From: Sinomonas sp. ASV322
GTDB lineage: Bacteria > Actinomycetota > Actinomycetes > Actinomycetales > Micrococcaceae
DNA length: 64,000 bases
Direction: 5' to 3'
NCBI RefSeq assembly: GCF_030908245.1
Contig: NZ_JAVFJJ010000019.1
Coordinates: forward strand, 1 to 64,000
Shown one piece after another: positions 12,461 to 64,000 of the stretch. The translations under genes and the position numbers were made by a program. The notes beneath the pieces are model-generated. The model saw nothing but the letters and a program-made list of their open reading frames with translations, was not told where the DNA came from and searched no databases. How positions within the stretch are numbered: position 1 is the stretch's first letter; the number at the start of each line of letters is the position of its first letter.

Positions 12461-12569
12461 ACCGTCCCTTTCTCCGCACCACCGTCCCTGAGCGTCACGA
12501 CCGTCCCTGAGCGTCACGACCGTCCCTGAGATCGCGCTCCAAGGGACGGTTATGCCGCCGAGGGACGGT
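12461..12569. repeat. Head-to-head array of ACCGTCCCT repeats, 19-20 bp period
   Basis: Four direct copies of ACCGTCCCT (12461, 12481, 12500, 12519) are followed by two inverted copies AGGGACGGT (12542, 12561). The middle copies share the extension GAGCGTCACG. The array fills the gap between the convergent EamA and histidine kinase genes. It could fold into a nested hairpin and act as a bidirectional terminator, or bind a protein. No coding sense is apparent. Confidence 0.75.
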
Positions 12570-15098: not shown

Positions 15099-16157
15099 AT
15101 GTCGCCCGAACCGCAGAACCCCACCCAGCACGACCCGACTTCGCAGGACCCAACCCCGCCGGTCCCAACCCCGCCGGTCGCAACCCCGCAGGACCCGCAC
15201 GCCGGCGGGGCGCAGGCCACGCCGCAGCAGCCCGTTCCCCAGCAGCCTGCCCCCCAGCAGTCGGCGCGGCCCATCGACCCTGCCGCGCAGCCGACCGAGA
15301 TGCTCTACCCGAGTCAGCCGCCCACCGCAGCTCAGCCCGGCATCCCGCCCGCGCAGGGCTGGGGCGGGCCCCAGTCCACTCCGGCACCGTCCACCCCTGC
15401 GCCCGGGTGGGGTGCGCCGTCGTCGTCTGCTCAGCCCCAGAGCCCCGGCTTCGGGCCGGGCTATGGGTCGCCGACGCCGGGCCAGAGTTGGGGGGCTCCG
15501 GGCGCGCCCGCTTCGGGCCAAGGCTGGGGACAGGGCGCGCCGAGCACGCCGCGCAAGAACCTGATCGCGCGGCTCACGCCCGTCCAGAAGGGGCTCGCCG
15601 CGGCGGGGGTCGCCGTCGTCGTCGTGGGCGGTGCCGGGGCCGCGGTGTATGCCGCGACGACCGCGAGCAACAACACCGGGAACGACAACGCGGGAGCCCC
15701 AGGCCTGGGCGGGCCGGGAGCCGGACCCGGCCAGAACGGCTCGGGTCAGAACGGGCAGAACGGCCCGGGCCAGAACGGCCTGCGCCAGAACGGCTTTGGT
15801 CCGGGGAACCTCGGCCTCGGCGCGGCGGGGCAGGCGGTGCACGGCGAGTATGTTGTGCTGCGCAACGGCCAGTACGTGACCGAGCTCGAGCAGACCGGCA
15901 CGATCACGGCCGTGTCCGATACGCAGGTCACCGTCAAGAGCGCCGACGGCTACGTCCAGACATACGCCATCTCGTCACAGACCACGATCGCGAGCTTCGG
16001 GGCGCGCGGCTCGCGCCAGCAGTCGCCGTCGCCGTCGCAGGGCCAGGGCTCGGTGACGGCCTCGAGCCTGAAGAACGGCGAGACCGTGCGCGTGACCGCG
16101 CTCAAGGACGGCAACGCCGCACTCACGATCGTCGCGATGTCGGCCTCGACGAACTGA
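15099..16157 (+). CDS. Single-pass membrane protein with Pro/Gln-rich N-terminus and DUF5666-like outer domain
   Basis: A 352-residue protein. Residues 1-145 are cytoplasmic, low-complexity and rich in P, Q and A. One helix (about 168-190, AAAGVAVVVVGGAGAAVYAA) crosses the membrane. A Gly/Asn/Gln linker with repeated GQNG follows, then a beta-rich tail (about 265-350) with TGTITAVSDTQVTVKSADG and LKNGETVRVTALKDG, similar to DUF5666-type domains. GGAGG lies 6 bases before the ATG at 15099. It is divergent from the two-component system and is its most likely target (inference). The function is unknown; an envelope role fits. Confidence 0.75.
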   Translation: MSPEPQNPTQHDPTSQDPTPPVPTPPVATPQDPHAGGAQATPQQPVPQQPAPQQSARPIDPAAQPTEMLYPSQPPTAAQPGIPPAQGWGGPQSTPAPSTPAPGWGAPSSSAQPQSPGFGPGYGSPTPGQSWGAPGAPASGQGWGQGAPSTPRKNLIARLTPVQKGLAAAGVAVVVVGGAGAAVYAATTASNNTGNDNAGAPGLGGPGAGPGQNGSGQNGQNGPGQNGLRQNGFGPGNLGLGAAGQAVHGEYVVLRNGQYVTELEQTGTITAVSDTQVTVKSADGYVQTYAISSQTTIASFGARGSRQQSPSPSQGQGSVTASSLKNGETVRVTALKDGNAALTIVAMSASTN

Positions 16158-16169
16158 CCGTTCGAAGCG

Positions 16170-16296
16170 TGAGCTCTTGGCGGAATAACTCGTCCGCCGC
16201 GACAAGAGCTCACCTTTCGGCGCGCGCAGGCAACGGACGACGACGGCGCCGCTCCCCACCGTGGCTTGAATCCACGTGGGGAGCGGCGCCGTCGTT
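16170..16296. repeat. Two-hairpin intergenic cassette, copy 1
   Basis: The first hairpin pairs GTGAGCTCTTG (16170) with CAAGAGCTCAC (16204) and is followed by CTTTCG. The second has a 20-bp perfect stem, 16241-16260 with 16277-16296. The same order, GAGCTCACCTTTCG then AACGGACGAC opening a second strong hairpin, recurs at 63050-63162. Both copies lie between convergent genes. It is probably a bidirectional terminator; the shared non-stem bases suggest a repeat family. Confidence 0.75.
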
Positions 16297-16469
16297 CGCC
16301 GTGCCGTCCTGTACACGTACGCGAAGGGACGCGCCCTTCTCACGGCGTGTTGCGCGGAATGCACCGGCGCGTCGGCCGTTACGGCCCCGAATCCGTCGTG
16401 TACGCGTACACGACGGGACACGCGGGACGCTGCCGATCAGTACCAGGTGGGCGATCGGCGGCGTGCCGA

Positions 16470-17159
16470 TCAGTACCAGTTGTGCGTGTAATGAAAGGCG
16501 AGGGCGTTCGCGGGGGAGCCGTAGCGGTCCTTGATGTAGCCGAGGCCCCAGTCGATCTGCGTGCGGTAGTTGGTCTGCCAGTCGCTGCCCGCGGAGGCCA
16601 TCTTGCCGCCCGGGAGCGACTGTGCGATGCCGTAGGCGCCGCTGCTGGCGTTGGTGGCCGTGGTCGTCCAGTTGGACTCACGGTTCCACAGCGTGATGAG
16701 GGCCTGCATCTGGTCCTGCCCCCAGCCGAACTTGGCGAGCTGGCTCGAGGCGTAGGCCTGCGCACCGGCCGGGTCGTTGACCGGCTGGGTCTTGAGGAGC
16801 TCGGCCTTCGCCGCGTCGGCCGCAGCCTGGGCCTGCTGGTCGGACTGGGCCTTCGAGACGGAGCCGACGCTCGGGCGGATGAAGTCGAGCTTTGCGTCGG
16901 AAGCGGCGCTGATTTGGGGCGAGGTGGAGGCCGCCGGGGCGATGGAGCCGGCGGCAGCGATGTCCCCGCCATTGGCTGCGGCGCCACCGCTCACGGCGGC
17001 GGCAAGGCCGACAGAGGCGGCGACGACGGCGTTGCGGTAGCGCCCGCCGGTTGCCGTGTTGAGTCCAGCGGTGATGCGGGCGAGGCCGCGCGGCGGGGTC
17101 TCCGCCCGGTGGCGGCCCCGATGGCGCACAGGCGTACCCAGGGACTTGGTGTTGCTCAC
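16470..17159 (-). CDS. Secreted transglycosylase-like cell-wall protein under a c-di-AMP riboswitch
   Basis: A 229-residue exported protein. A basic N-terminus and hydrophobic segment (about 42-65) form a signal sequence, followed by an Ala/Gln-rich stalk. The C-terminal domain (about 140-229) resembles lysozyme/SLT-like and aggregation-promoting-factor tails, with LITLWNRESNWTTTATN, SSGAYGIAQSLPG and a terminal WGLGYIKDRYGSP then HNWY. The E in WNRESNW is the probable catalytic acid. The GTG at 17159 follows a GAGAGG site. The upstream leader matches a ydaO-type c-di-AMP riboswitch, a known controller of actinobacterial wall hydrolases such as RpfA. It likely remodels peptidoglycan. Confidence 0.82.
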   Translation of the reverse strand: MSNTKSLGTPVRHRGRHRAETPPRGLARITAGLNTATGGRYRNAVVAASVGLAAAVSGGAAANGGDIAAAGSIAPAASTSPQISAASDAKLDFIRPSVGSVSKAQSDQQAQAAADAAKAELLKTQPVNDPAGAQAYASSQLAKFGWGQDQMQALITLWNRESNWTTTATNASSGAYGIAQSLPGGKMASAGSDWQTNYRTQIDWGLGYIKDRYGSPANALAFHYTHNWY

Positions 17160-17178
17160 GCGAGGAACCTCTCGTTAG

Positions 17179-17344
17179 CGCCTGCGAAGTTAGCTGCCGG
17201 GTTCGGATGCGAGTCATCCGGCCCCGCCGTGTGGCGTGGGCTTCACCCCTGGCCGCGGCCCCGCACTTGGCGGGTCCTTCGGCGACCGATTGGGTCCTCC
17301 GTCTCTGCCTTGGTGTCACCCTGAGCTGTCGGCAGAGTTCGGCG
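17179..17344 (-). ncRNA. Cyclic di-AMP riboswitch (ydaO-yuaA type)
   Basis: On the minus strand the leader runs from CGCCGAACTCTGCC to GAACCCGGCAGCTAACTTCG then CAGGCG, 20 bases before the GTG. The ending CCGAACCCGNCAGCTAAC plus AGGCG and the internal CAGGGGTGAA match conserved blocks of actinobacterial ydaO leaders. The 5' CGCC can pair with the 3' GGCG as the closing P1 stem. High c-di-AMP is expected to turn the wall-hydrolase gene off. Confidence 0.82.
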
Positions 17345-27042: not shown

Positions 27043-27126
27043 GTTGCGCCGTCACCTCTGGCGGGTGCGCACGCGTTGCGCCGTCACGTCTGCAGGGTGC
27101 GCACCCTGCAGAAATGACGGCGCAAC
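27043..27126. repeat. 32-bp-period hairpin array between convergent genes
   Basis: Two direct units begin GTTGCGCCGTCAC at 27043 and 27075, exactly 32 bases apart. The second pairs with an inverted copy ending GACGGCGCAAC at 27126, giving a 52-base hairpin with the core CTGCAGGGTGCGCACCCTGCAG. It follows the reductase stop directly and should work as a bidirectional terminator. The geometry matches the GGGGTCAC arrays elsewhere in the window. Confidence 0.8.
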
Positions 27127-46609: not shown

Positions 46610-46643
46610 AGGGCCGCCCCGCTGCACACGGGGCGGCCCTTCT
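46610..46643 (+). terminator. Rho-independent terminator of pckG
   Basis: A 12-bp perfect stem (AGGGCCGCCCCG / CGGGGCGGCCCT) with a 7-base loop, followed by TCT, lies 60 bases after the pckG stop and before a GGGGTCAC repeat array. Confidence 0.8.
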
Positions 46644-46651
46644 GCCGTTTG

Positions 46652-46754
46652 GGGGTCACCTCCCGTGGGTGGGAGGTGGTTCGGGGGTCACCTCCCGTTG
46701 GCGGGACCCGCGGGACGTGACCCTTGGATGGCGGCGCACCCGCGGGACGTGACC
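46652..46754. repeat. GGGGTCAC array A, 32-bp period (2 direct + 2 inverted)
   Basis: Direct cores GGGGTCACCTCCCGT begin at 46652 and 46684 (32 apart). Inverted cores CGGGACGTGACC begin at 46711 and 46743 (32 apart). The inner pair spans 41 bases. Unlike the other copies, this one lies between two genes in the same direction, pckG and the PEP-utilising enzyme. Confidence 0.85.
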
Positions 46755-46796
46755 TCTGGATGGTGGGGGACCCGCCCGCGCGCGTACCGTGGGGCC

Positions 46797-49265
46797 ATGG
46801 ACGACGGCGCGCCATCACCTTTCCCCGCAGAGTCACCCGGGCTTAACCCAGCGCCCATCCTCCCGCTGGCATCCCTGCGGGCCACCGACCTCCCCGTCGC
46901 GGGAGGCAAGGGCGCGAACCTGGGCGAACTCATCGCGGCCGGGCTCCCGGTGCCGCCCGGCTTCGTCGTGACGACGGAGGCCTACCGGGCCCACGCGGTC
47001 GCCGCGGGCCTCGACCCCGCCGCGGCCGCCGAAGAACCCGCCGCCGCGCGCGCGACGCTCGAGGCCGCCCCCCTTGCCCCGGCGCTCACGCACGAGATCA
47101 GGGCGGCCCTCGCCGAACTCGGGCCCGTGGGCACGCGCGTCGCCGTCCGCTCGAGCGCGACCGCCGAGGACCTCCCCGGCGCCGCATTCGCCGGCCAGCA
47201 GGACACGTTCCTCGACGTCGAGGGTCCGGACGCCCTCGCCGACGCGGTCCGCCGCTGCTGGGCCTCGCTCTGGACAGACCGCGCCGTCCAGTATCGCGAG
47301 CGGCAGGGGATCTCGCCCGCGGACGTGGCGATCGCCGTCGTCGTCCAACGCATGGCCGAAGCCGACGCCGCGGGGGTCCTCTTCACCGCGAACCCGCTCA
47401 CGGGCAGGCGCGCGGAGCTCGTCGTGGATGCGGCGCCGGGGCTCGGAGAGGCGGTCGTCTCGGGCCAAGTCACGCCCGAGCACCTCGTCCTGGACCGCGA
47501 GGGCGCCGTCGGCGAGTGGACCCCCGCGCACGACGGCGGGGCCAGGGTCCTGCCCGACCGCGCGGCCCGCGAGCTCGCCGAGCTTGCCGTCCGCGCCGAG
47601 AAGCATTTCGGCGTGCCGCAGGACATCGAGTGGGCGCTCGCGGACGGGCGGATCGTCCTGCTGCAGGCCCGCCCCATGACGGCGCTGCCGCTCGAGCCTC
47701 CGGTGCTCAACCGCTTTCAGCAGATGATGACGCCGTTCTTCCTCGAGATGTTCGTATCGCGCCCCTACCCGATCGACGTGACGGCGTGGCTGCGCCCCGG
47801 CGTCGAACGGATGCTCGGAATCATGATGGGCAGCGTCGGCGTCCGCTTCCCGCCGCTCGGCCAGCTCGTGCGCGAGCGCGACGGCGTGGCCCTCCAGCTT
47901 GTCCCCGCGCAGCCCCGGCCCAGTCCCCTCGTGCTCGGCGCGCCGCTCGCGATCCTTCGCCGCGCGCGGCGGTATCCGGTCCGCGATTGGACCACCGACC
48001 CGCAGTTCGCCGAATTCGAGGCGATCGTCGACGCCCTCGACGCTCAGGACCCGGCCACGCTCGGGTGGGCAGACCTCTTGGCGCGCGTCGATCGCTGCAC
48101 CGACGCCATGGAGCCGCTCGCGAGGATTCGCGCCGCATACCTTCCCGGCGCGTTCCTTCCGTTCGCGCCGCTTCGCCTCGGGCTTGCGCTGCTCGGCCTC
48201 ACCCGGCTCGCGCCCCCGCTCGTCGCGGGCGCCCGCACGCGCACGCGCGCCGGCAACGACGCGCTCGACGCGCTCGCCGACGCCGTCCGCGCCGACCCGG
48301 AGCTGTCGTTGGCGGCCCGCGAGCTGGACGCTCCCGCGTTCCTTGATGCCGTGCGTTCGCGGCCCGAGTTCGAGGAGTTCGACCATCGGCTTGACGCCTA
48401 CCTCGCCGAGTACGGGCACCGCGAGTCCTTGAGCATCGTCCTCGCGACGGCGCCGACGTGGCGCGACGACCCGACACCCGTCGCAGCGATCATCCAGGCG
48501 GCCGCCTCCGAACCGCCCCGCGAGCGCGGACCCAATCCGGGCGACGCGGCGATGCGCGAGCTCCTGGCGCATCCCTTCCTGCGCTCGCCGCGGGCGGCGC
48601 GCATGGCCCGGGCAGTCGTCGACGCCGCGCGGCGGGGCCTCGCGTTCAGGGAGGACACGCATTTCTTCATCACCCGCGTCCTCCCGCCGCTGCGGGCCAC
48701 GTTCCTCGAGCTGGGCCGGCGGCTCACCGCCGTCGGCGCGCTCCCCGCGGCGGAGGATGTCTTCCACCTCCGCCTCGAGGAGCTGCGCGAGGTGCGCCCG
48801 CCCGAGGCGATCGACGATGTCGACCGCGCCCGAGTGCGCGCCCTCGCCGCGCGCCGGGCCGCCCTGAGGCGCGAGTACGCCGGTGTGCCGATGCTGGACC
48901 TCGCGACGGTCCTTCCGGGCCGTGCCGGGGCGGACGACGGCGGGAGCGCGCTCATCAGGGGCACGCCCGCGAGCGGCGGGGTTGCCGAGGGGCCGGTCCG
49001 GATCGTGCGGGGGCCGGATGAGTTCGGGGCGCTGCGCGCGGGCGACGTGCTCGTGTGCCCGAACACCAACCCGTCGTGGACGCCGCTGTTCGCGCGGGCG
49101 GCCGCCGTCGTCGTCGACACCGGCGGGCTCGGCTCGCACGCTGCCATCGTCGCGCGCGAGTATGGCGTGCCCGCGGTCATGGGGACGCGGCGCGGCACAT
49201 CGGTGCTTCGGGAGGGGCAGCGCGTGCGCGTCGACGGAAGCAGGGGACGGGTGGACGCAGCGTGA
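46797..49265 (+). CDS. PEP/pyruvate-binding phosphotransferase (Rph/PEP-synthase-like)
   Basis: An 822-residue three-part enzyme. The N-terminal ATP-grasp (about 20-310) has AGGKGANLGELIAAGLPVPPGFVVT, AVRSSATAEDLPGAAFAGQQDTF and DIEWALADGRIVLLQARPM. A middle substrate domain (about 320-720) is not clearly assigned. The C-terminal swivelling domain carries the phospho-acceptor His about 781 (DTGGLGSHAAIVAREYGVPA). The order ATP-grasp, middle, His matches rifampicin phosphotransferase and PEP-synthase relatives; the substrate cannot be told. The ATG lies 6 bases after the -10 box TACCGT (leaderless). It follows pckG, whose product PEP it may use or make, and overlaps lhgO by 4 bases. Confidence 0.8.
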   Translation: MDDGAPSPFPAESPGLNPAPILPLASLRATDLPVAGGKGANLGELIAAGLPVPPGFVVTTEAYRAHAVAAGLDPAAAAEEPAAARATLEAAPLAPALTHEIRAALAELGPVGTRVAVRSSATAEDLPGAAFAGQQDTFLDVEGPDALADAVRRCWASLWTDRAVQYRERQGISPADVAIAVVVQRMAEADAAGVLFTANPLTGRRAELVVDAAPGLGEAVVSGQVTPEHLVLDREGAVGEWTPAHDGGARVLPDRAARELAELAVRAEKHFGVPQDIEWALADGRIVLLQARPMTALPLEPPVLNRFQQMMTPFFLEMFVSRPYPIDVTAWLRPGVERMLGIMMGSVGVRFPPLGQLVRERDGVALQLVPAQPRPSPLVLGAPLAILRRARRYPVRDWTTDPQFAEFEAIVDALDAQDPATLGWADLLARVDRCTDAMEPLARIRAAYLPGAFLPFAPLRLGLALLGLTRLAPPLVAGARTRTRAGNDALDALADAVRADPELSLAARELDAPAFLDAVRSRPEFEEFDHRLDAYLAEYGHRESLSIVLATAPTWRDDPTPVAAIIQAAASEPPRERGPNPGDAAMRELLAHPFLRSPRAARMARAVVDAARRGLAFREDTHFFITRVLPPLRATFLELGRRLTAVGALPAAEDVFHLRLEELREVRPPEAIDDVDRARVRALAARRAALRREYAGVPMLDLATVLPGRAGADDGGSALIRGTPASGGVAEGPVRIVRGPDEFGALRAGDVLVCPNTNPSWTPLFARAAAVVVDTGGLGSHAAIVAREYGVPAVMGTRRGTSVLREGQRVRVDGSRGRVDAA

Positions 49266-50485
49266 CGGGACGGATGGGGACGGAGCGCGTCGGGATCGTC
49301 GGCGGCGGAATCGTGGGGATGGCGATCGCGCGGGCCCTCGCCCTCACGGGCGGCTTCGACGTCGTCGTGCTCGAGAAGGAGCGTCGCGTCGCGGCGCACC
49401 AGACGGGGCACAACTCGGGCGTCGTGCACGCGGGGCTGTACTACCAGCCGGGCTCGCTCAAGGCCTTGCTGTGTGCGCGGGGCCGGGAGCTCACGCGCGA
49501 CTACTGCCTCGATCGCGGGCTGCCGTACCGCGAACTCGGCAAGCTCGTCGTCGCGGTGACGCCGGACGAGGTGCCTCGGCTCGACGAGATCGAGCGGCGG
49601 GCGCGGGCGAACGGTGTGCCCGACCTCGCGCGCATCGGCCCTGCGCGCATGCGAGAGCTCGAGCCCCACGTCGCCGGGGTGGGGGCCGTGCATTCGCCGC
49701 ACACCGCCGTCGTCGATTTCTCGGCGATCACCGAGGCGATGGCCGACGACGTGCGGCGCGCGGGCGGGCGCGTGCTGCTGGGCACCGAGGTCGTGGGGAT
49801 CCGAGCGGGGGAGGGCACGACGACGGTCGCGACCTCGGGTGCGACCCACACCTTTGATCGGCTCGTCGTGTGCGCGGGGCTGCAGTCCGACCTCGTGGCG
49901 CGCATGGTCGGGGCGTCGCCGTCGCCTCGGATCCTGCCGTTCCGCGGGGAGTACTGGGCGCTCGCGCCCGCGCGGGCCTCGCTCGTGCAGGGCATGATCT
50001 ACCCCGTGCCGGATCCGCGTTTCCCGTTCCTCGGGGTGCACTTCACGCGCGGCGTGTACGACGACGTGCACGTCGGCCCGAACGCCGTGCCCGCCCTCGC
50101 GCGCGAGGGGTACCGCTGGGGGAGCGTGTCGGTGCGGGACACCCTCGGTTCGTTGATGTGGCCCGGCGCGGCGGCGCTGTTCCGACGGCACTGGCGGATG
50201 GGCGTGCGCGAGATCTCCGCCTCGCTGCTCAAGCCTCTGTATTACCGTCAGGCGCGGGCCTTCGTGCCGGACCTGCGGCCCACGGATCTCGCGTCGAAGG
50301 CGGGCGCCGGCGTGCGGGCACAGGCGTGGTCCGCGGACGGGTCGCTGCTCGACGACTTCGCCGTGGATCAGGTTGGGTCCGTGACGCTCCTCCGGAACGC
50401 GCCCTCGCCCGCCGCGACCTCCTCGATGGCGATCGCGGAGTACGTGCTCCGCGAACACCTCGGGGTGCCCGTCCGCGAGAGGTAG
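49262..50485 (+). CDS. lhgO: L-2-hydroxyglutarate oxidase
   Basis: A 407-residue FAD-dependent DAO-fold oxidase converting L-2-hydroxyglutarate to 2-oxoglutarate. Visible: the dinucleotide site GIVGGGIVGMAIARAL, then HQTGHNSGVVHAGLYYQPGSLKA, LPFRGEYWAL, YPVPDPRFPFLGVHFTRG and the C-terminal SPAATSSMAIAEYV, all characteristic of LhgO. The GTG overlaps the upstream stop by four bases (GTGA), so it is translated with the PEP-utilising enzyme. A metabolic reason for that pairing is not evident. Array B follows the stop. Confidence 0.93.
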   Translation: MTGRMGTERVGIVGGGIVGMAIARALALTGGFDVVVLEKERRVAAHQTGHNSGVVHAGLYYQPGSLKALLCARGRELTRDYCLDRGLPYRELGKLVVAVTPDEVPRLDEIERRARANGVPDLARIGPARMRELEPHVAGVGAVHSPHTAVVDFSAITEAMADDVRRAGGRVLLGTEVVGIRAGEGTTTVATSGATHTFDRLVVCAGLQSDLVARMVGASPSPRILPFRGEYWALAPARASLVQGMIYPVPDPRFPFLGVHFTRGVYDDVHVGPNAVPALAREGYRWGSVSVRDTLGSLMWPGAAALFRRHWRMGVREISASLLKPLYYRQARAFVPDLRPTDLASKAGAGVRAQAWSADGSLLDDFAVDQVGSVTLLRNAPSPAATSSMAIAEYVLREHLGVPVRER

Positions 50486-50504
50486 GCACCGGAGGGCTCC
50501 GTTC

Positions 50505-50609
50505 GGGGTCACGTCCCGTGGGTGTGCGCGCGTTCGGGGGTCACGTCCCGTGGGTTGAACCAGCGGGAGGTGACCCCTGGATGGCGGCTAACCAGCGGGA
50601 CGTGACCCC
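50505..50609. repeat. GGGGTCAC array B, 32-bp period (2 direct + 2 inverted)
   Basis: Direct cores GGGGTCACGTCCCGTGGGT begin at 50505 and 50537; inverted cores end at 50577 and 50609. Both spacings are exactly 32. The inner pair is a hairpin with 19-base arms and a TGA loop. It lies between the convergent lhgO and Clp ATPase genes. Confidence 0.88.
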
Positions 50610-50616
50610 TGGACGG

Positions 50617-53358
50617 TTAGGCGGCGGCGGCCGGCTCTTCCGCCCGATAACCCGCGCGCACGGCGAGCTCGCCGCCGTCGACGGTCACGCTCACGCGCCC
50701 GCCCTCGGCGACGGAACCCGTGACGAGCAGGTCCGCCACACGGTCCTCGAGCTCGCGCTGGATCACGCGGCGCAGCGGCCGCGCACCGAATTCGGGCTCG
50801 TAGCCGCGCTCGGCGATCCAGGCGACGGCGGCGTCGTCGACGGCGAGCGCGATGCCCTGTGCCGCGAGCCGCGCCTCGGTGCCGCGGAGCTGGAGCCGAA
50901 CGATCTCGAGCAGCTCCCCGCGTGTGAGCTTCTGGAACAGCACGATCTCGTCGATCCGGTTGAGGAACTCGGGCCGCATCGTCTCGCGCAGCCGTCCCAT
51001 GATCCTGGCCCGCAGCTCCGCGTCCGACGGCCCGCCATCCACCCCGCCCGACGCGAAGCCGAGCGCGGCGCCGCGGGTCGCGAGGAACTCAGACCCGAGG
51101 TTCGAGGTCATGATGACCACGGTGTTGCGGAAGTCCACGGTGTGGCCCTGCCCGTCGGTGAGCCGCCCGTCGTCGAGCACCTGGAGGAGCAGGTTGAACA
51201 CGTCCGGGTGGGCCTTCTCGACCTCGTCGAGCAGCACGACGGAGTACGGGCGCCGCCGGACGCGCTCGGTGAGCTGCCCCGCCTCCGAGTAGCCGACGTA
51301 CCCCGGAGGGGCACCGACCAGCCGGCTCACCGTGTGGCGCTCGCCGAATTCGCTCATGTCGAAGCGGACCATCGCGGACTCGTCGCCGAAGAGCGACGCC
51401 GCGAGGGCCTTCGCGAGCTCGGTCTTGCCCACGCCGGTCGGGCCGAGGAAGAGGAAGCTGCCCACGGGACGCCCTGCGTCTCCGAGGCCGGTACGGTTGC
51501 GCCGCACGGCCTTCGCGATCGCAGCGACCGGGTCCTCCTGCCCCACAACGCGTCCGTGGAGCTCGTCCTCAAGGCGCGCGAGCCGCTCGCGCTCGCCCTC
51601 CGTCACGCGCGAGGCCGGGATGCCCGTCGCGCGGGAGACGACTGCGGCAATGTCTGTGTCCTGGACGACGGCGTCCGGCCGGCTTGCGCCGTGGGCGCCG
51701 ACCGCGTCCGGCCGGCTTGCGCCGCGGGCGCCGACGGCGTCCGGCCGGCTTGCGCCGCGGACGACGGCGTCGCTCGCCTCGAGCGCGGAGACCTCTTCGC
51801 GCTCGGGCTGCTCGCCCGTCGCGGCCGCCTCGATCCTCGCGGCAAGACCTTCGACCTGGTCGCGCAGCCGGGACGCGAGCTCGTAGTCCTCGGCCGCCAC
51901 GGCGGCGTCCTTCCGCTCCTCGAGCTCAGCCGCCTCGGCGCGCAGTGCCTCGAGATCCACGCGCGGACCCCGGGCCAGGCTCAGCCGAGCCCCGGCCTGG
52001 TCGATGAGGTCGATCGCCTTGTCCGGGAGGTACCGGTCCGTGATGTACCGGTGCGAGAGCTCGACCGCGGCGCGGATGGCCTCGTCCGAGTAGGTGACCC
52101 CGTGGTGTTCCTCGTACCGCGACTTGAGCCCGTCGAGGATCGCGATCGCGTCCTCGATGTTCGGCTCGCCGACCGTCACCGGCTGGAACCTCCGCTCAAG
52201 CGCGGGGTCCTTTTCGATCTTGCGGTACTCGTCGAGCGTGGTCGCGCCGATGAGGTGCAGCTCTCCGCGGGCCAGCCTCGGCTTGAGGATGTTGCCCGCA
52301 TCCATGCCGCCCTCGCCCGCACCGCCCGCGCCGACTACCGTGTGGAGCTCGTCGACGAATGCGATGACGTTCCCGTCCGCCGCGATCTCATCCATGGTCT
52401 TCGTGAGGCGCTCCTCGAAGTCGCCCCGGTACCGGGTGCCCGCGAGCATTGCTGGAAGGTCGAGCAGGACGACCGACTTCCCGTGGAGCTGCGCTGGAAC
52501 CTCGCCGGACGCGATCGCTTGAGCCAAGCCCTCGACGATCGCGGTCTTCCCGACGCCGGCCTCGCCGATCAGCACGGGGTTGTTCTTGGTGCGGCGGGCC
52601 AGGATCTCGATGGCCTGCTCGATTTCCTCGCCGCGTCCGATCACGGGGTCGAGCTTGCCGTTGCGGGCGAGGGCCGTGAGATCGGTGCCGAATTTGTCGA
52701 GCATTGCGTTCTTGGCCGCATCGCCCCGAGTCTCAGCACCCCGACGGCGGGCGCGCTGGCCCGCGGCAGGGGCGGCAGCGCCGTCGTCGTTCGCGCCCGC
52801 GTCAGATGCGCCTGAGGCGCCGCCGCCCGCCTGGAGCGACTGCGGCGTGATGCCGTGCGAGACGAGGATCTGCCCGGCGGGGGCGTCGGTCGCGAGGACG
52901 AGCGCGAGGAACACGTGCTCGGGGTCGATGTAGGTGGAGCCGAGAGCGCGCGCGACCTTGTAGGCATCGAGGAGCACATGCTGGGCGGACGGCGTGAGCG
53001 ACGGCGTGGCGCCGCCGAGTCCCGACTCGTCGGCGGCCGCGGCCGGAAGTCGCTGCTCGACGGCGTCGGCGATGTCTTCGACATGAACCCCGGCAGCCGC
53101 GCCCGCGTGCTCGATCATGGCGGCCACCGACTCCGTCTCGACCAGGGCGCGCAGCAGGTGCAGCGCGTCGACCTCGCGGTGGCCGTGGTCGACGGCGTAG
53201 CGCCCCGCCGCGTTCACAAGCTCCTGGGTTCCGCGGCTCACAAGGCGGCTGATGTCGAGCGGGCGGCCGGTGGGCCGAGCGCCCTGGCCCTGCAGGTAGC
53301 GGGCGAGGAAGTCATCGAAGGAGCCGTTGCCGGCGCCCGGACCGAAAAAGGTAGGCAC
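50617..53358 (-). CDS. ClpC-like AAA+ unfoldase of the Clp protease
   Basis: A 913-residue double-AAA+ protein. Two Clp_N repeats (about 30-180) come first. AAA-1 has GEAGVGKT and a middle region with a UVR-like helix pair ([21 protein letters not shown]), typical of ClpC rather than ClpB. AAA-2 has [28 protein letters not shown] and [13 protein letters not shown] in ALGFASGG fits the ClpP-docking loop. The start is taken as the GTG at 53358, GGAGG 5 bases upstream; the ATG at 53385 adds 9 residues without a site. Between the AAA halves a [10 protein letters not shown] motif is repeated three times. It is divergent from poxB. Confidence 0.9.
51671..51766 (-). repeat. 33-bp tandem repeat inside the Clp ATPase gene
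   Basis: Three near-identical units starting GCGTCCGGCCGGCTTGCGCC at 51671, 51704 and 51737 encode [10 protein letters not shown](R/H)-type 11-residue repeats in the linker before AAA-2. Being a multiple of 3, copy number can change without breaking the frame. Confidence 0.9.
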
Positions 53359-53466
53359 ACCATCCTCCAGAAAGTTGAGTGACATTCGCTCATGTTCAAC
53401 GGTGTGGCGGAGCAGATATTCCCAAGGGGTACCAACTGCTCTCGAGGCGGGGCTAGCGTGGGCAGC

Positions 53467-55191
53467 ATGACGACCATCGCGCAGAATATCGTCGCAACCC
53501 TCGCGGCCAACGGGGTCCGCCGCGTCTACGGCATCCCGGGAGACTCGCTCAACGGCTTCACCGACGCGCTCCGGGAGACGCCCGCTATCGACTGGGTTCA
53601 CGTCCGCCACGAGGAGGCCGCGGCCTTCGCTGCGGCGGCCGAGGCCGCGCTCACGGGCGAGGTCGCCGTGTGCGCCGGCTCGTGCGGGCCCGGCAACCTC
53701 CACCTCATCAACGGCCTCTACGACGCGAACCGCTCGCGCGTCCCCGTGCTCGCGATCGCGGCCCACATCCCGAGCTCCGAGATCGGCTCGAACTACTTCC
53801 AGGAGACCCATCCGCAAGAGGTCTTCCGCGAGTGCAGCGTGTACGCCGAGCAGGTCACGGACCCCGCGCAGATGCCGCGCATTCTCGAGATCGCGCTCCG
53901 GACCGCCGTCGAGAAGCGGGGCGTCGCCGTCGTCGTCCTCTCGGGCGACGTCGCGCTCGCGACCGCGAAGTCAGATCGGGTCGCGATCGTGCGCCGCGCG
54001 CGCCCGCGCGTCGTGCCGGGCGACGCCGAGCTGCGCGAGGCTGCCGGCCTCCTCAACGCGGCGGGCAAGGTCACGATCCTCGCAGGAGCGGGAGTCGACG
54101 GCGCGCACAACGAGGTCGTCGCGCTCGCGGACGCCCTCGGCGCGCCCATCGTGCACGCGCTGCGGGGCAAGGAATTCATCGAATACGACAATCCGTTCGA
54201 CGTCGGCATGACCGGCCTGCTCGGCTTCAGCTCGGGCTACCGGGCGATGGAGGACTGCGACGCCCTCCTCATGCTCGGCACGGACTTCCCGTATCAGCAG
54301 TTCTATCCGGCCGAGGCGAAGATCATCCAGGTCGACATCCGCGGCGAGCAGCTCGGGCGCCGCGCGCGGCTCGACCTCGGGCTCGTGGGCGACGTCAAGG
54401 ACACCGCCGCCGCGCTCCTGGCGCTCGTCGAGCACAAGCGGCGCCGCACCCACCTCGACGCCTCGCTCAAGCACTACGCGAAGACCCGCGCCAAGCTCGA
54501 CGATCTCGCGACGCCCACCCGGCGCGGCCAGCCGCTCCACCCGCAGTACGTCACACGCGTCCTCGACGGGCTCGCCGCCGACGATGCCGTGTTCACGGCC
54601 GACGTCGGGTCCCCGGTCGTGTGGGCCGCGCGCTACCTCACCATGAACGGACGACGGCGGCTGCTCGGCTCATTCAGCCACGGCTCCATGGCGAACGCTC
54701 TCTCCCACGGCATCGGCGCGCAGGCCGCGTACCCCGGCCGGCAGGTCGTCGCGCTCGCGGGCGACGGCGGGCTCGCGATGCTGCTCGGCGAGCTCATCAC
54801 GCTCGTGCAGAACAAGCTCCCGCTCAAGCTCGTCGTCTACAACAACTCTTCGCTCAACTTCGTCGAGCTCGAGATGAAGGCCGCCGGGTTCGTGAACTTC
54901 GGAACGGAGCTTGTGAATCCCGATTTCGCGGCCGTAGCCGAGGCGCTCGGAATCAAGGGCATTCGGGTCGCGGACTCGTCCGAGCTCGAGCAGGGTCTCA
55001 AGGAGGCGCTCGCCCACGACGGGCCCGCCCTCGTGGACGTCGTGACGGCCCGGCAGGAGCTCGCGATCCCGCCCGCGATCACGCTCCAGCAGGCGGGCGG
55101 GTTCACGCTTTACGCGCTCCGGACCGTGCTCTCGGGCCGCGGTGACGAGGTGCTCGACCTCGCGAAGACCAACTGGCGGCGAGTTTTTTAG
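53467..55191 (+). CDS. poxB: Pyruvate dehydrogenase (quinone) / pyruvate oxidase
   Basis: A 574-residue TPP- and FAD-dependent enzyme oxidising pyruvate to acetate and CO2 at the membrane. The catalytic Glu is in VRHEEAAAFAAAAEA, with GSCGPGNLHLINGLYDANRS following. The FAD domain is about 190-340, and the TPP motif is GDGGLAMLLGELITLVQNKLP with VVYNN. The C-terminal segment should bind the membrane. The ATG at 53467 lies 7 bases after TAGCGT (leaderless). It is divergent from the Clp ATPase and ends at array C. The best match is PoxB; other acetolactate-synthase-like activities are less likely. Confidence 0.92.
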   Translation: MTTIAQNIVATLAANGVRRVYGIPGDSLNGFTDALRETPAIDWVHVRHEEAAAFAAAAEAALTGEVAVCAGSCGPGNLHLINGLYDANRSRVPVLAIAAHIPSSEIGSNYFQETHPQEVFRECSVYAEQVTDPAQMPRILEIALRTAVEKRGVAVVVLSGDVALATAKSDRVAIVRRARPRVVPGDAELREAAGLLNAAGKVTILAGAGVDGAHNEVVALADALGAPIVHALRGKEFIEYDNPFDVGMTGLLGFSSGYRAMEDCDALLMLGTDFPYQQFYPAEAKIIQVDIRGEQLGRRARLDLGLVGDVKDTAAALLALVEHKRRRTHLDASLKHYAKTRAKLDDLATPTRRGQPLHPQYVTRVLDGLAADDAVFTADVGSPVVWAARYLTMNGRRRLLGSFSHGSMANALSHGIGAQAAYPGRQVVALAGDGGLAMLLGELITLVQNKLPLKLVVYNNSSLNFVELEMKAAGFVNFGTELVNPDFAAVAEALGIKGIRVADSSELEQGLKEALAHDGPALVDVVTARQELAIPPAITLQQAGGFTLYALRTVLSGRGDEVLDLAKTNWRRVF

Positions 55192-55206
55192 GCCGTCCTC
55201 CGTTTG

Positions 55207-55376
55207 GGGGTCACCTCCCGTGGGTGCGCGACCATCGAGGGGTCACCTCCCGTGGGTGCTCGGCCATCGAGGGGTCACCTCCCGCGGGTGCTCGGCCGTC
55301 CAAGGGTCACTTCCCGGTGGGTCTGACCCACCGGAGGTGACCCCTGAACGCGGATGGACCCACCGGAGGTGACCTC
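55207..55376. repeat. GGGGTCAC array C, 32-bp period (4 direct + 2 inverted)
   Basis: Direct cores begin at 55207, 55239, 55271 and 55303, each exactly 32 apart, with GGGGTCACCTCCCGTGGGT in the first two and small changes later. Inverted cores ACCCACCGGAGGTGACC begin at 55326 and 55358, again 32 apart. It lies between the convergent poxB and HxlR genes and is the longest array seen. Confidence 0.9.
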
Positions 55377-55382
55377 TGGACG

Positions 55383-55751
55383 CTAGGTGGCCGCGGCGTC
55401 GAACGCGTCGCGGGCGTCGAGGATCTTCCGCGCGTGGCTCTCGGCCCACTCGCGGATCGAGTCGAGCGGCCCGAGGAGGCTCGCGCCGAGCGGAGTGAGC
55501 CGATACTCGACGCGCACGGGGACCTCGGCGAAAACGGCGCGGGACACCAGGCCGTCGCGCTCGAGCGTGCGGAGCGTCTGGGTCAGCACCTTGGGCGTGA
55601 TGCCGCCGACGGCCGCGCGCAGCGCGCTGAACCGGAGCGGCCCGACCTTGAGGGCCTGGACGATGAGCGGGGTCCACTTGTCGCCGATGCGCTGCAAGAC
55701 GACGCGAGAGGGGCACTCAGGGTCCATAACGTCGAAGGCGAGACTATCCAC
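55383..55751 (-). CDS. HxlR-family transcriptional regulator
   Basis: A 122-residue winged-helix regulator. The HxlR domain (about 12-105) reads [40 protein letters not shown], and [20 protein letters not shown]. The Cys in the first block is where some family members sense oxidants or quinones. The GTG at 55751 is chosen because the -10 box TATGGT lies 6 bases upstream; a longer frame would run through the operator. It is divergent from the NmrA-like gene, its likely target. Confidence 0.9.
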
Positions 55752-55771
55752 GAGGTAACCATAGCACTTTG

Positions 55772-55796
55772 AAGTACTTAGTATCTCGTGGATACT
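55772..55796. promoter_or_regulatory. Candidate HxlR operators
   Basis: AAGTACTT (55772-55779) and AGTATC-TCGTG-GATACT (55780-55796) are adjacent perfect dyads in the gap between the HxlR and NmrA-like genes, overlapping the expected -35 region of the regulator. They fit shared control of both genes. Confidence 0.6.
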
Positions 55797-55834
55797 GTTG
55801 CGTCGTTCGTCGGAATCGATGCAGAGGAGCACTC

Positions 55835-56446
55835 ATGAAGATCGCCGTCTACGGAGCCACCGGCATGGTGGGAAGCCAGATCGTCGCCGAGGCCGCGCGC
55901 CGCGGGCACGAGGTGACCGCCCTCAGTCGCAAGGGCGCCGCGGTGGAGGGCGCCGCCGTCGTCCGCGCTGCGGACCTCGCCGACCTCGAAACGTACCGTT
56001 CCGCCGCTTCGGCGAACGACGTCGTCGTGCTGGCGACGGCGCCCGACCGCACCGGCGGATCGCGCGAGCCTTACCTCGCCGCGCACCGCGCGATCGCGGC
56101 CGTCCCGACTGACGCACGCCTGTATCTTGTGGGCGGCTTCGGCGGGCTGCAGTCGCCGGACGGGACGCGCATCAAGGATCTGCCGGACTTCCCGGCCGAG
56201 TACAAGGGCGAATCGGACACGGTGTTCGAGGCGTACGAGGCGCTACGCGATTCCTCGGCCGGACTCGATGTGACGGTCCAGGCCCCTGCTGCCGTCATCG
56301 CTCCCGGCGAGCGGACCGGCGAGTACCGCACGGCCGTCGGCGTCCCCGCGGGCGACTTCATCTCCGCGCAGGACTACGCGGTCGCAGCGCTCGACGAGCT
56401 CGAGACCCCGCAGTTCCGCGGAGAAATCTTCACGGCCGCCAACTGA
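55835..56446 (+). CDS. NmrA-like NAD(P)-binding protein
   Basis: A 203-residue atypical short-chain dehydrogenase. The Rossmann motif is VYGATGMVGSQIVAEAARRG, followed by DLADLETYRSAAS and LYLVGGFGGLQS. No YxxxK catalytic pair is obvious, so it is an NmrA/YwnB-type protein that may sense or reduce using NAD(P)H. GAGGAG lies 6 bases before the ATG. It is divergent from the HxlR regulator, a common pairing in redox or quinone response. Confidence 0.88.
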   Translation: MKIAVYGATGMVGSQIVAEAARRGHEVTALSRKGAAVEGAAVVRAADLADLETYRSAASANDVVVLATAPDRTGGSREPYLAAHRAIAAVPTDARLYLVGGFGGLQSPDGTRIKDLPDFPAEYKGESDTVFEAYEALRDSSAGLDVTVQAPAAVIAPGERTGEYRTAVGVPAGDFISAQDYAVAALDELETPQFRGEIFTAAN

Positions 56447-56455
56447 TCTCGTTCA

Positions 56456-56624
56456 GGGGTCACGTCCCGTTGGTTGGTGACCGTTCAGGGGTCACGTCCT
56501 GCCGGTTGATGCGCGTTCAGGGGTCACGTCCCGTCGGTTTAGCCAACAGGAGGTGACCCCCGGATGGTGGGGGACCCGCGTGAGGTGACCCCTGAACGGT
56601 TCGGGACCCGCGGAAGGTGACCCC
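56456..56624. repeat. GGGGTCAC array D, 32-bp period (3 direct + 3 inverted)
   Basis: Direct cores GGGGTCACGTCC begin at 56456, 56488 and 56520 with upstream GTTCA conserved. Inverted cores GGTGACCCC end at 56560, 56592 and 56624. All spacings are exactly 32. It lies between the convergent NmrA-like and phosphoesterase genes. Confidence 0.9.
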
Positions 56625-56630
56625 TGGACG

Positions 56631-62603: not shown

Positions 62604-63032
62604 ATGGACTGGACTCTTGAAGTTGTCATCCTGCCTGTCTCCGACATTGAACGCTCGGTGCAGTTCTATCGGGACAAAGTCGGGTTCCACCTCGACCACA
62701 ACACGACGAACGAGCACATGCACGTCGTCCAGCTCACCCCCGAAGGCTCCGGCTGCTCGATCGTGTTCGGCGACCTGCCGGCCCAGCGCGAAATGGAGCC
62801 GGGTTCGATGAAGGGGCTCCAGCTCGTCGTCGCGGACGCCGAGGCCGCGCGGGCCGAGCTCGTGGGCCGCGGCGTCGACTGCTCTGAGCTCATGGTGTTC
62901 TCGCCGGACGACGGTGGGACCTTCTTCGGCTTCGCCGATCCGGACGGCAACACGTGGGCCGTCCAGCAGATCAGGGCCCGCGCCGAGAAGCCGCTCATCC
63001 CGGTCGAGAACCGCGGCCGCTTCGGCGCGTAG
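62604..63032 (+). CDS. VOC-family (glyoxalase-like) protein
   Basis: A 142-residue protein with two beta-alpha-beta-beta-beta units of the vicinal oxygen chelate fold: VVILPVSDIERSVQFYRDKVGF, and GLQLVVADAEAARAELVGRGV. Metal-type residues include His in HVVQLTPEG and Glu/Asp positions near the end, with FFGFADPDGNTWAVQQI typical of the family. The reaction (dioxygenase, glyoxalase or drug binding) cannot be told. The ATG lies 6 bases after TAGGTT, a leaderless start. The two-hairpin cassette follows it. Confidence 0.88.
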   Translation: MDWTLEVVILPVSDIERSVQFYRDKVGFHLDHNTTNEHMHVVQLTPEGSGCSIVFGDLPAQREMEPGSMKGLQLVVADAEAARAELVGRGVDCSELMVFSPDDGGTFFGFADPDGNTWAVQQIRARAEKPLIPVENRGRFGA

Positions 63033-63049
63033 CGCCGTACGGTCCCCGA

Positions 63050-63162
63050 GGTGAGATCTCGTCGGAAAGACGCGTCCGTTCCGACGAGAGCTCACCTTTC
63101 GATCCGCGAGAACGGACGACGGCGGGGTCCCCGCCTGGGTGGGGACCCCGCCGTCGTCCGTT
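63050..63162. repeat. Two-hairpin intergenic cassette, copy 2
   Basis: The first hairpin pairs 63050-63067 with 63079-63096 (GGTGAG-TCTCGTCGGAA type arms, one mismatch), then CTTTCG. The second has a 22-bp perfect stem, 63111-63132 with 63141-63162, starting AACGGACGACGGCG. It shares GAGCTCACCTTTCG and AACGGACGAC with copy 1 at 16170-16296. It lies between the convergent VOC and TPP-enzyme genes. Confidence 0.78.
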
Positions 63163-63178
63163 GCGTGCGGAGCTCGAC

Positions 63179-64000
63179 TCAGTAGGCCTTGACGCGCTGC
63201 TCGACGATGAGGTGGATGAGCGCGAAGGTGCCGTCCTCGTCGATCGCGCGGAGGGCGGCCTCGATCGCGCGTGGGACGTCGGCGTCGCGCTCGACCCGCA
63301 CGCCGAAGCCGCCGAACGCGCGCGCCATGAGTGCGAAGTCGGGGTTCCTGAGCTGGGTTCCGGAGACGCGGTGCGGGTAGGAGCGCTCTTGGTGCGTCCG
63401 GATCGTGCCGTATTCCTGGTTGTCCATGACGACGACGAGCGGCGTTGCGCCGTACTGCGCCGCGGTCGCGAGCTCTTGGCCGTTCATGAGGAACTCGCCG
63501 TCGCCCGCGATCGTCACGACGCGGCGCCCCGGGTTCGCGAGCGACGCCGCGATCGCCGACGGAACCGAGTAGCCCATCGAACCGTTGCGCGCACTGATCA
63601 TCGACGCGTACTTCTGCGTCGGGAAATAGCGGTGCGCCCAGTTCGTGTGCTCGCCCGCGCCGAGGGTCACCATCGCGTCCTCGGGCAGCGTCGGCACGAG
63701 GTTGGCCATGAGGGTGTCCATGCGCGCGGGGCCGTCGCCCGGGGTCGCCGGCGGAAGCGCCGCGAACTTGACCTGCTCGCCGCGCATGCGCTCGGTCCAC
63801 GCCGTCCATTGATCGCGGGCGGGGAGGTCCATGCGCACGAGGTCGCGCACGAACACGTCCGGCTTCGCGACGATCTGGTAGGAGACGGGGCCCGAGCGTC
63901 CGCGCAGGGACGGGTCGATCGTGACGAGGAAGTTCTTCTTGGCCCAGTCCTGGCGGACGAGGAAGCCGTCGGTGATGACGTCGCCGGGGACGGTCCCGAC
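63179..64000 (-). CDS. TPP-dependent enzyme (acetolactate synthase/oxidase-like), partial
   Basis: The C-terminal 273 residues or so of a thiamine-diphosphate enzyme; the frame is open to the window edge, so the 5' part is missing. The central domain end (VPGDVITDGFLVRQDWAKKN, DPSLRGRSGPVSYQIV) is followed by the TPP domain: NGSMGYSVPSAIAASLANPG, then GDGEFLMNGQELATAAQYGA and VVVMDNQEYGTIRTHQE, which holds the GDG-x(~25)-N cofactor motif. It is related to but distinct from PoxB at 53.5-55.2 kb. Without the N-terminal catalytic Glu region the reaction cannot be assigned. Confidence 0.85.
   Translation of the reverse strand, partial: VGTVPGDVITDGFLVRQDWAKKNFLVTIDPSLRGRSGPVSYQIVAKPDVFVRDLVRMDLPARDQWTAWTERMRGEQVKFAALPPATPGDGPARMDTLMANLVPTLPEDAMVTLGAGEHTNWAHRYFPTQKYASMISARNGSMGYSVPSAIAASLANPGRRVVTIAGDGEFLMNGQELATAAQYGATPLVVVMDNQEYGTIRTHQERSYPHRVSGTQLRNPDFALMARAFGGFGVRVERDADVPRAIEAALRAIDEDGTFALIHLIVEQRVKAY

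Follow-up and report, generated by a model that had tools for sequence, protein, structure and literature searches.

Mirrored arrays of 32-bp units at gene ends in Sinomonas, possibly an iterated, hairpin-derived REP-like repeat

The stretch analysed here (the window; 64,000 bp, positions 1–64,000 of contig NZ_JAVFJJ010000019.1 of the soil bacterium Sinomonas sp. ASV322) contains four intergenic arrays in which direct copies of a 32-bp unit are followed by inverted copies. We read the arrays as an iterated, hairpin-derived repeat of Sinomonas at gene ends, similar to repetitive extragenic palindromic (REP) elements and probably acting as a two-way barrier at transcript ends. To this reading as a whole we give a chance just short of even. 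The window is contig C11 of a 4.34-Mb genome in 33 contigs (G000), one of the 15 genomes of the genus that were considered (G000 to G014).

At two mismatches or fewer, 22 matches to the core were found in the window against 3.5 expected, a number reached in none of 100 shuffles. Twenty of the 22 are copies in the four arrays, and 11 of these are exact. A preliminary description, made from the letters of the window, had placed four arrays with a common core at these positions, with direct before inverted copies and an exact 32-bp period. All of this held, every one of the 12 steps between same-strand neighbours being 32 bp. Three of the four lie between convergent genes as described, the exception being array 1 (Table 1). 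The 41–42 bases said to lie between the facing cores are in fact the length of the inner pair with both cores included, the last direct and the first inverted one; the gap itself is 13–14 bases. The hairpin proposed for the inner pair was recovered, with a measured loop of 3–4 nt in place of 3 bases.

The core was then counted over the whole genome, as the preliminary description had proposed. With up to one mismatch it occurred 211 times (100 forward and 111 reverse), compared with 4 times (1 and 3) for the reversed control core. The census of arrays covered the window and 30 stretches around matches among those listed, so arrays of mismatched copies only may escape it. It gave 224 units, as opposed to 0.2 per mononucleotide shuffle, and these form 38 groups (called arrays here), including one with a single unit. 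Among 156 same-strand steps shorter than 80 bp, 141 were exactly 32 bp, and 45 of 53 arms had no step other than 32 bp. Contigs C4 and C10 start inside arrays and C14 starts 66 bp ahead of one, so long arrays probably break the assembly.

The 32-bp unit consists of CRTYNRGGGTCACSTCCCGYGGGT and about 7 free bases (composition from 223 units). Between arrays, the 25-bp unit had an identity of 0.822. The 7-bp linkers, taken once per arm, had an identity of 0.398 between arrays versus 0.360 from composition and were thus near-random; 45 distinct linkers occurred among 51 arms. As the step is nearly constant and the linkers are near-random, the length of the unit is held and its sequence is nearly free there. 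Linkers within one arm were nearly identical (0.922), and a CRISPR-like reading was rejected for this reason. The 5' end of the unit was CGTT in 108, CATC in 48 and CGTC in 35 of 222 units, and no stem adjoins this tag. A possible origin of the linker as a copy of the flank or by target duplication was put to a test, in which the bases outside the outermost unit agreed with the linker at a mean of 2.52 of 7 positions (2.27 when shuffled; 50 arms, p = 0.05). In the inverted arms of L082, L069 and L083, the outer 7 bp equalled the linker at 7, 6 and 6 of 7 bases. These flanks look as though the arm and its 7-bp flank had been duplicated together.

Thirty of the 38 groups have two arms and eight have only one (one of them at a contig end and one being the single unit). 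Direct units precede inverted units in all 30 two-arm arrays of G000; a few exceptions to this order were seen in the relatives (L140, L098, L156 and L104). The inner units start 28–30 bp apart in 21 of the 30, which leaves a loop of 3–5 nt. The subtype of the arms tracks the GC skew of the contig (Spearman 0.60, n = 38; 0.70 over 13 contigs, p = 0.008), pointing to a mutation bias of the replication strand. Four additional stretches of contig C29 had no clear skew switch, and a replication origin or terminus inside this contig was rejected. A T/G-type arm often faces a C/A-type arm, with differences that are wobble-compatible on one strand. The same skew led us to drop an idea of RNA wobble based on this: the sign of the arm type goes with contig skew and does not appear to go with transcription. 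At ten junctions of two forward genes it was plus in four, minus in five and zero in one (by reading, with no formal test). The core also includes TCACCTCC, which we take to be a sequence matching the 3' end of 16S rRNA. An anti-Shine–Dalgarno reading of it was rejected because a G stands at the decisive place in 59 of 223 units, and it is also undercut by a reversed arm order at the Clp junction in G014.

The position relative to genes was assessed with flanks assigned by a simple codon-usage gene caller. Among the 35 arrays with both flanks, 18 were convergent, 17 co-directional and none divergent (L085, printed as divergent, was counted as co-directional because its array overlaps a reverse-strand gene). 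The 69 control gaps of 40–700 bp came from 20 stretches, an impure set in that L160 contains a known array and L164 starts with an IS110 element that the window also carries; 9 were convergent, 45 co-directional and 15 divergent. The difference was significant for convergent (Fisher, p = 8e-5) and for divergent junctions (p = 0.002, or 0.01 if L085 is taken as divergent, 1/35). Stop codons facing an array were at most 15 nt away from it in 38 of 54 cases, two of these lying inside the array. In relatives, whose stretches were selected for presence of the core, 36 of 68 core clusters were convergent, 16 co-directional and 2 divergent; 10 overlapped a called gene and 4 lacked one flank. Neither of the two outcomes that the preliminary description had set against its proposal, spacing not concentrated at 32 bp and scatter regardless of gene ends, occurred. 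Like REP elements and the bacterial interspersed mosaic elements (BIMEs), the arrays are extragenic, lie 3' of genes and occur at convergent and co-directional rather than divergent junctions; this is less clear for the hairpins of G014 described below.

Two-arm arrays folded far better than shuffled sequences (mean z score of −7.5 on the plus strand, n = 27) and have the G+C-rich hairpin of an intrinsic terminator. Seven of the eight one-arm arrays stayed near the shuffles (z of −2.4 to +2.2 on both strands), the other being L088 4153 at −3.2/−6.6. Three of the 38 arrays were excluded from this test (N or more than 420 bp). A single unit folded no better than its shuffles (minimum free energy of −9.6 vs. 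−9.1), and stem lengths were similar too. The folded RNA considered in the preliminary description therefore applies to two-arm arrays and fails for most one-arm arrays, and the arms of G000 show no covariation (values below).

In G014, the related core is mostly present as simple hairpins, with 15 pattern-matching arms in 14 of 20 stretches (the first of the places listed). The facing arm pairs at 19 or more of 23 bases for 14 of the 15 arms, five of them perfectly, and the loops are 3–4 nt long. At variable sites, the agreement between the two arms was 0.857 (0.753 for shuffled arms), a value reached in none of 5000 shuffles. One stretch (L331) holds two direct units 32 bp apart. Co-varying arms in G014 and arms without covariation in G000 suggest that the hairpin came first and the iteration later.

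A 19-base pattern was found in 3 of 295 genomes of the family, all of the genus Sinomonas. A looser pair pattern occurred in 10 of 120 genomes, with 6 to 120 matches in five Sinomonas genomes and 1–3 in five others. The exact core pair was not found in the named genome collection, from which the genome of the window itself is possibly excluded. The main step is 32 bp in G000 and G008, 14 bp in G004, G005 and G006 (in G006 from two stretches only) and 21 bp in G009 to G012. Nine of the 15 genomes contain 6 to 73 copies of GAGGGGTCAYRTCCC, a related family of 21 bp, and the six others, including G000, contain none. As this family is present beside the 14-bp steps, G004, G005 and G006 hold two families. 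Copies of the sister subfamily GCGCCGTCACSTC number 64 in G014, 51 in G007, 27 in G000 and 0–6 in the other genomes (controls 0–5). In the window this subfamily steps by 32 bp; in G014 it mostly forms simple hairpins, and in G007 many of its facing pairs are 33 bp apart. For GCCGAAACCCC we counted 33 copies in G008, some of them at 19-bp steps, and 0–8 in the others. G007 and G013 carry it at their Clp junction and contain only 5 and 8 copies (controls 2 and 0); a dispersed family in every species was accordingly not borne out. In G000, the second family ACCGTCCCTGAG has nine exact matches, all on the plus strand of their contigs and partly in 19-bp steps (19–20 bp). It is also present at C29:195061-195110. 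Elsewhere on C29 (L161, 1170-1477), an intergenic long G run is followed by C runs, either an assembly artefact or a homopolymer tract.

The RAYT transposase of REP elements (Y1, PF01797), the sole mobiliser domain sought, had no match in any of the 15 genomes; the control was positive in 5 of 14 known genomes. Mobility of the RAYT/REP type was rejected on this basis. The REP-like family of the preliminary description thus stands as dispersed, locally expanding, intergenic and located at gene 3' ends, and falls short in the missing RAYT and in a lone unit that does not fold.

Orthologous junctions were compared at three places. The convergent Clp junction was located in 13 of the 15 genomes, G009 and G011 giving no close orthologue. 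In all 13, the length of its inverted repeat was attained by none of 100 mononucleotide shuffles, and in nine the direct repeat exceeded the shuffles too (not in G003, G005, G012 and G013; in G008 at shift 117). By eye, the sequences at this junction are of at least five types: GGGGTCACSTCCCG, GAGGGGTCATRTCCC, AGGTCACCTCCTGA, CCGAAACCCC and ACGAGACCGC. Mirrored repeats that differ in length and sequence occur in several relatives, and the layout thus seems to be conserved although the letters differ. At the PEPCK junction, read by eye in nine genomes (five further ones were unreadable and G011 had no match), a terminator was present in all nine. Behind it, there were arrays in G000, G004, G005 and G012, a short hairpin in G002 and nothing of the kind in G001, G006, G007 and G013. 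At a junction next to a gene that we read, from its sequence alone, as a probable cysteine desulfurase, a 21-bp unit has seven copies in G011 and three in G012, with flanks 99.8% and 98.9% identical; G005 has a 14-bp version. Both direct and inverted repeats were present at 5 of 8 convergent gaps in the window and at 6 of 9 in stretches of Sinomonas DNA surrounding the PPDK gene, compared with 1 of 8 in Arthrobacter kin and 0 of 12 in other Actinomycetota.

For the reading as a REP-like repeat derived from a hairpin, the founding element would have been a palindrome with arms of about 23–25 bp and a loop of 3–4 nt, as is still present in G014. In the lineage of G000, each arm would have been multiplied in fixed 32-bp steps, each made up of the 25-bp unit and 7 locus-specific bases. 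Once iterated, the elements would persist, or be kept, just behind stop codons and chiefly between convergent genes. Their mirrored order would give each converging transcript a strong hairpin, and the result is probably a two-way transcript-end barrier. What was observed is the family itself, its order, step and placement, relatives with simple hairpins, copy numbers that differ by entire units and unlike sequences at one junction; the direction from hairpin to array, the mode of spread and an effect on termination or RNA stability are what we infer in this scheme. In E. coli, according to the sections covered of PMC13082048, head-on RNA polymerase collisions together with transcript hairpins place the bidirectional ends of convergent genes, and this was counted in favour of the barrier.

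Several results weigh against this reading. An inverted repeat as such is nothing unusual at a convergent gap, being present at 7 of 8 in Arthrobacter kin and at 7 of 12 in other Actinomycetota, and in unselected control stretches of G000 itself both repeat kinds were present at only 1 of 9 convergent gaps. No U-tract was seen by eye behind the array hairpins, the arms ending in CTGAACG, CTGGATG or CCAAACG. In G000, the arms did not co-vary at non-polar sites (inner pair p = 0.09, outermost p = 0.70), and over all 25 sites the facing arms resembled each other less than shuffled arms did (p = 0.97 and 0.998). Arm copy numbers are often unequal (e.g. 1:6, 5:1, 4:10), which, together with the one-arm groups (8 of 38), means that pairing cannot explain the outer units. 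As an intact, conserved terminator precedes the PEPCK array, ending that transcript is not the only role of this array. Slippage alone fails to account for 32-bp steps at loci with different linkers. In G014, finally, the 20 places were spread over 7 forward and 3 reverse co-directional, 5 convergent and 2 divergent junctions, with 3 overlapping a called gene.

The serious rival is a bound protein. The units would be phased sites for a DNA-binding protein, either a nucleoid/topology protein or a roadblock to transcription, that forms a polymer along one side of the helix; a step of 32 bp makes three turns, and the mirrored order would yield a two-sided block. We regard this as possible, though on the doubtful side. 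It fits the constancy of the step despite near-random linkers and the intact units of one-arm groups (GTCAC in 33 of 35, G20 and GGGT in 35 of 35). A constant-step protein is also proposed for Bacillus satellites in the part of PMC8161180 covered here. Spacings off the 32-bp step fell near 10.5-bp turns in G000 (n = 12, V = 0.675, p = 0.0003; 0.01 after scanning periods 7–16; n = 9, p = 0.003 and 0.067 after the scan when contig-end arrays are left out). The identical rule gave n = 7, V = 0.80 and p = 0.0006 (0.018 after the scan) in G008, and no phasing in the three other genomes tested, G009, G004 and G005. Excluded from this test were steps differing from 32 by 3 or less, inner spacings of 27–30 and a 42-bp spacing across N, and a value occurring twice was counted once (51 in G000, 53 in G008); the test was devised after the data had been viewed, and the points are few. 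Moreover, steps of 14 bp are not whole turns, the unrelated core ACCGTCCCTGAG in the same genome would require another protein, and no candidate protein was identified. The bound oligomer of the preliminary description hence gains indirect support from the constant length with free linkers and from phasing in two 32-bp genomes, and loses it through the unphased 14- and 21-bp relatives and the unrelated core.

Neutral satellites are a quite unlikely explanation in our judgement. A chance hairpin would have been duplicated by replication slippage, spread by recombination and tolerated at promoterless 3' ends, and it would serve no function. Whole-unit copy differences between near-identical flanks (G011 and G012), near-identical linkers within an arm, the tie between arm subtype and skew, and the rarity at divergent junctions, which carry promoters, all agree with such an origin. 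It does not readily explain a near-constant step where the linker is near-random, differing inverted repeats at the Clp junction in 13 of 13 genomes with direct repeats in nine, or the contact with stop codons. Control of translation or decay, with a structure at most 15 nt from the stop that stalls ribosomes or blocks exonucleases as for E. coli REPs, is very improbable. The short distance of most facing stops recalls the <16 nt rule for REPs in the part of PMC12306157 covered. However, it is the direct units, unfolded when alone, that adjoin the stop, and the hairpin often lies several units beyond it. One broader possibility, unlikely as it stands, is that the convergent-gene gap in Sinomonas is a slot in which architecture is selected and sequence is free. 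Mirrored fixed-step repeats would form a two-sided transcription barrier, and the step (14, 19, 21 or 32 bp) would be set by a lineage-specific ruler: a protein binding one face, or a duplication that copies the arm plus about 7 bp of neighbouring sequence.

The features of the window are given in Table 1. The genes flanking the four arrays (by Pfam: PEPCK, PPDK_N/PEP-utiliser, FAD oxidoreductase, Clp-type ATPase, TPP enzyme, HxlR, NAD(P)-binding and phosphoesterase) are ordinary, and no theme shared by them was seen.

Table 1. Arrays and an adjoining terminator in the 64-kb window
Feature	Position	Strand	Composition and setting
Array 1	46646..46762		2 direct + 2 inverted 32-bp units; between PEPCK (+) and PPDK_N gene (+)
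Intrinsic terminator 3' of PEPCK gene	46611..46643	+	Ordinary; separate from the repeat, array 1 directly behind
Array 2	50499..50615		2 direct + 2 inverted units; convergent, FAD oxidoreductase (+)/Clp-type ATPase (−)
Array 3	55201..55382		4 direct + 2 inverted units; convergent, TPP enzyme (+)/HxlR-type regulator (−)
Array 4	56450..56630		3 direct + 3 inverted units; convergent, NAD(P)-binding protein (+)/phosphoesterase (−)
Sister-subfamily array (GTTGCGCCGTCACSTCTG...; subfamily GCGCCGTCACSTC)	27043..27126		2 direct units 32 bp apart + 1 inverted; convergent
Second-family array (ACCGTCCCTGAG...)	12461..12569		4 direct copies, steps 20, 19 and 19 bp, then 2 inverted 19 bp apart; convergent

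A search of the whole window with Rfam 15 at gathering score returned no match to the arrays, only tRNA and a c-di-AMP riboswitch (ydaO/yuaA leader; 17164-17294, minus strand, 54.6 bits). Two convergent junctions, at 16157-16470 and 63032-63179, carry other strong hairpins, such as GACGACGGCG...CGCCGTCGTC and the GGTGAG...CTCACCTTTCG pair; they are perhaps further dispersed terminator families. Positions 1-1433 of the window are identical to the start of contig C23 and include an IS110-family transposase (274-1140), indicating an assembly break at an insertion sequence.

Among known systems, REP elements and BIMEs, including the GTAG and CGTC families, come close. In the sections of PMC3733652 and PMC12306157 covered, they are dispersed, often species-specific extragenic repeats with several families per genome, mainly at convergent or co-directional open reading frames, less than 20 bp from 3' ends and with head-to-head partners. 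The Sinomonas unit differs in that it is no palindrome (REPs being palindromes of 20–40 bp), that its direct copies form a run opposite a run of inverted copies at fixed 32-bp steps, that all 15 genomes lack the RAYT domain and that only 35 of 222 units have the CGTC 5' end. CGTC REPs are likewise without RAYT, according to the part of PMC3733652 covered. Constant-length bacterial satellites (Subirana & Messeguer; PMC8161180, PMC6749651, PMC8625621) are also tandem, species-specific and free in sequence, and include a 20–21-nt class. The arrays share their constant length and variable sequence. Their reported lengths are 20–21 and 52 nt, whereas Sinomonas has 14, 19, 21 and 32 bp within one genus (the arrays having 32 bp and some relatives 21 bp); neither a mirrored order nor contact with stop codons is mentioned in the parts of the descriptions compared. 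Collision termination in E. coli (PMC13082048) has in common the head-on genes and the hairpins that position both ends, but its sections covered describe no repeat family. The G-rich heptamer repeats of Xanthomonas and Nostoc (PMC4692102) are 7-bp quadruplex repeats, mainly between aligned reading frames, and mirrored arms are not described in the part covered. No description of these mirrored arrays was found in the literature searched, which did not include a 2020 J. Bacteriol. paper on tandem repeats, so an earlier mention is possible.

The arrays link two poorly understood things, REP-like repeats at 3' ends and tandem repeats of constant length and free sequence. One genus with several step lengths, partly at orthologous junctions, is a natural experiment on what sets the length of the unit, be it a protein, the geometry of the hairpin or the replication machinery. 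The comparison within Sinomonas could show whether convergent genes need a barrier that is independent of sequence.

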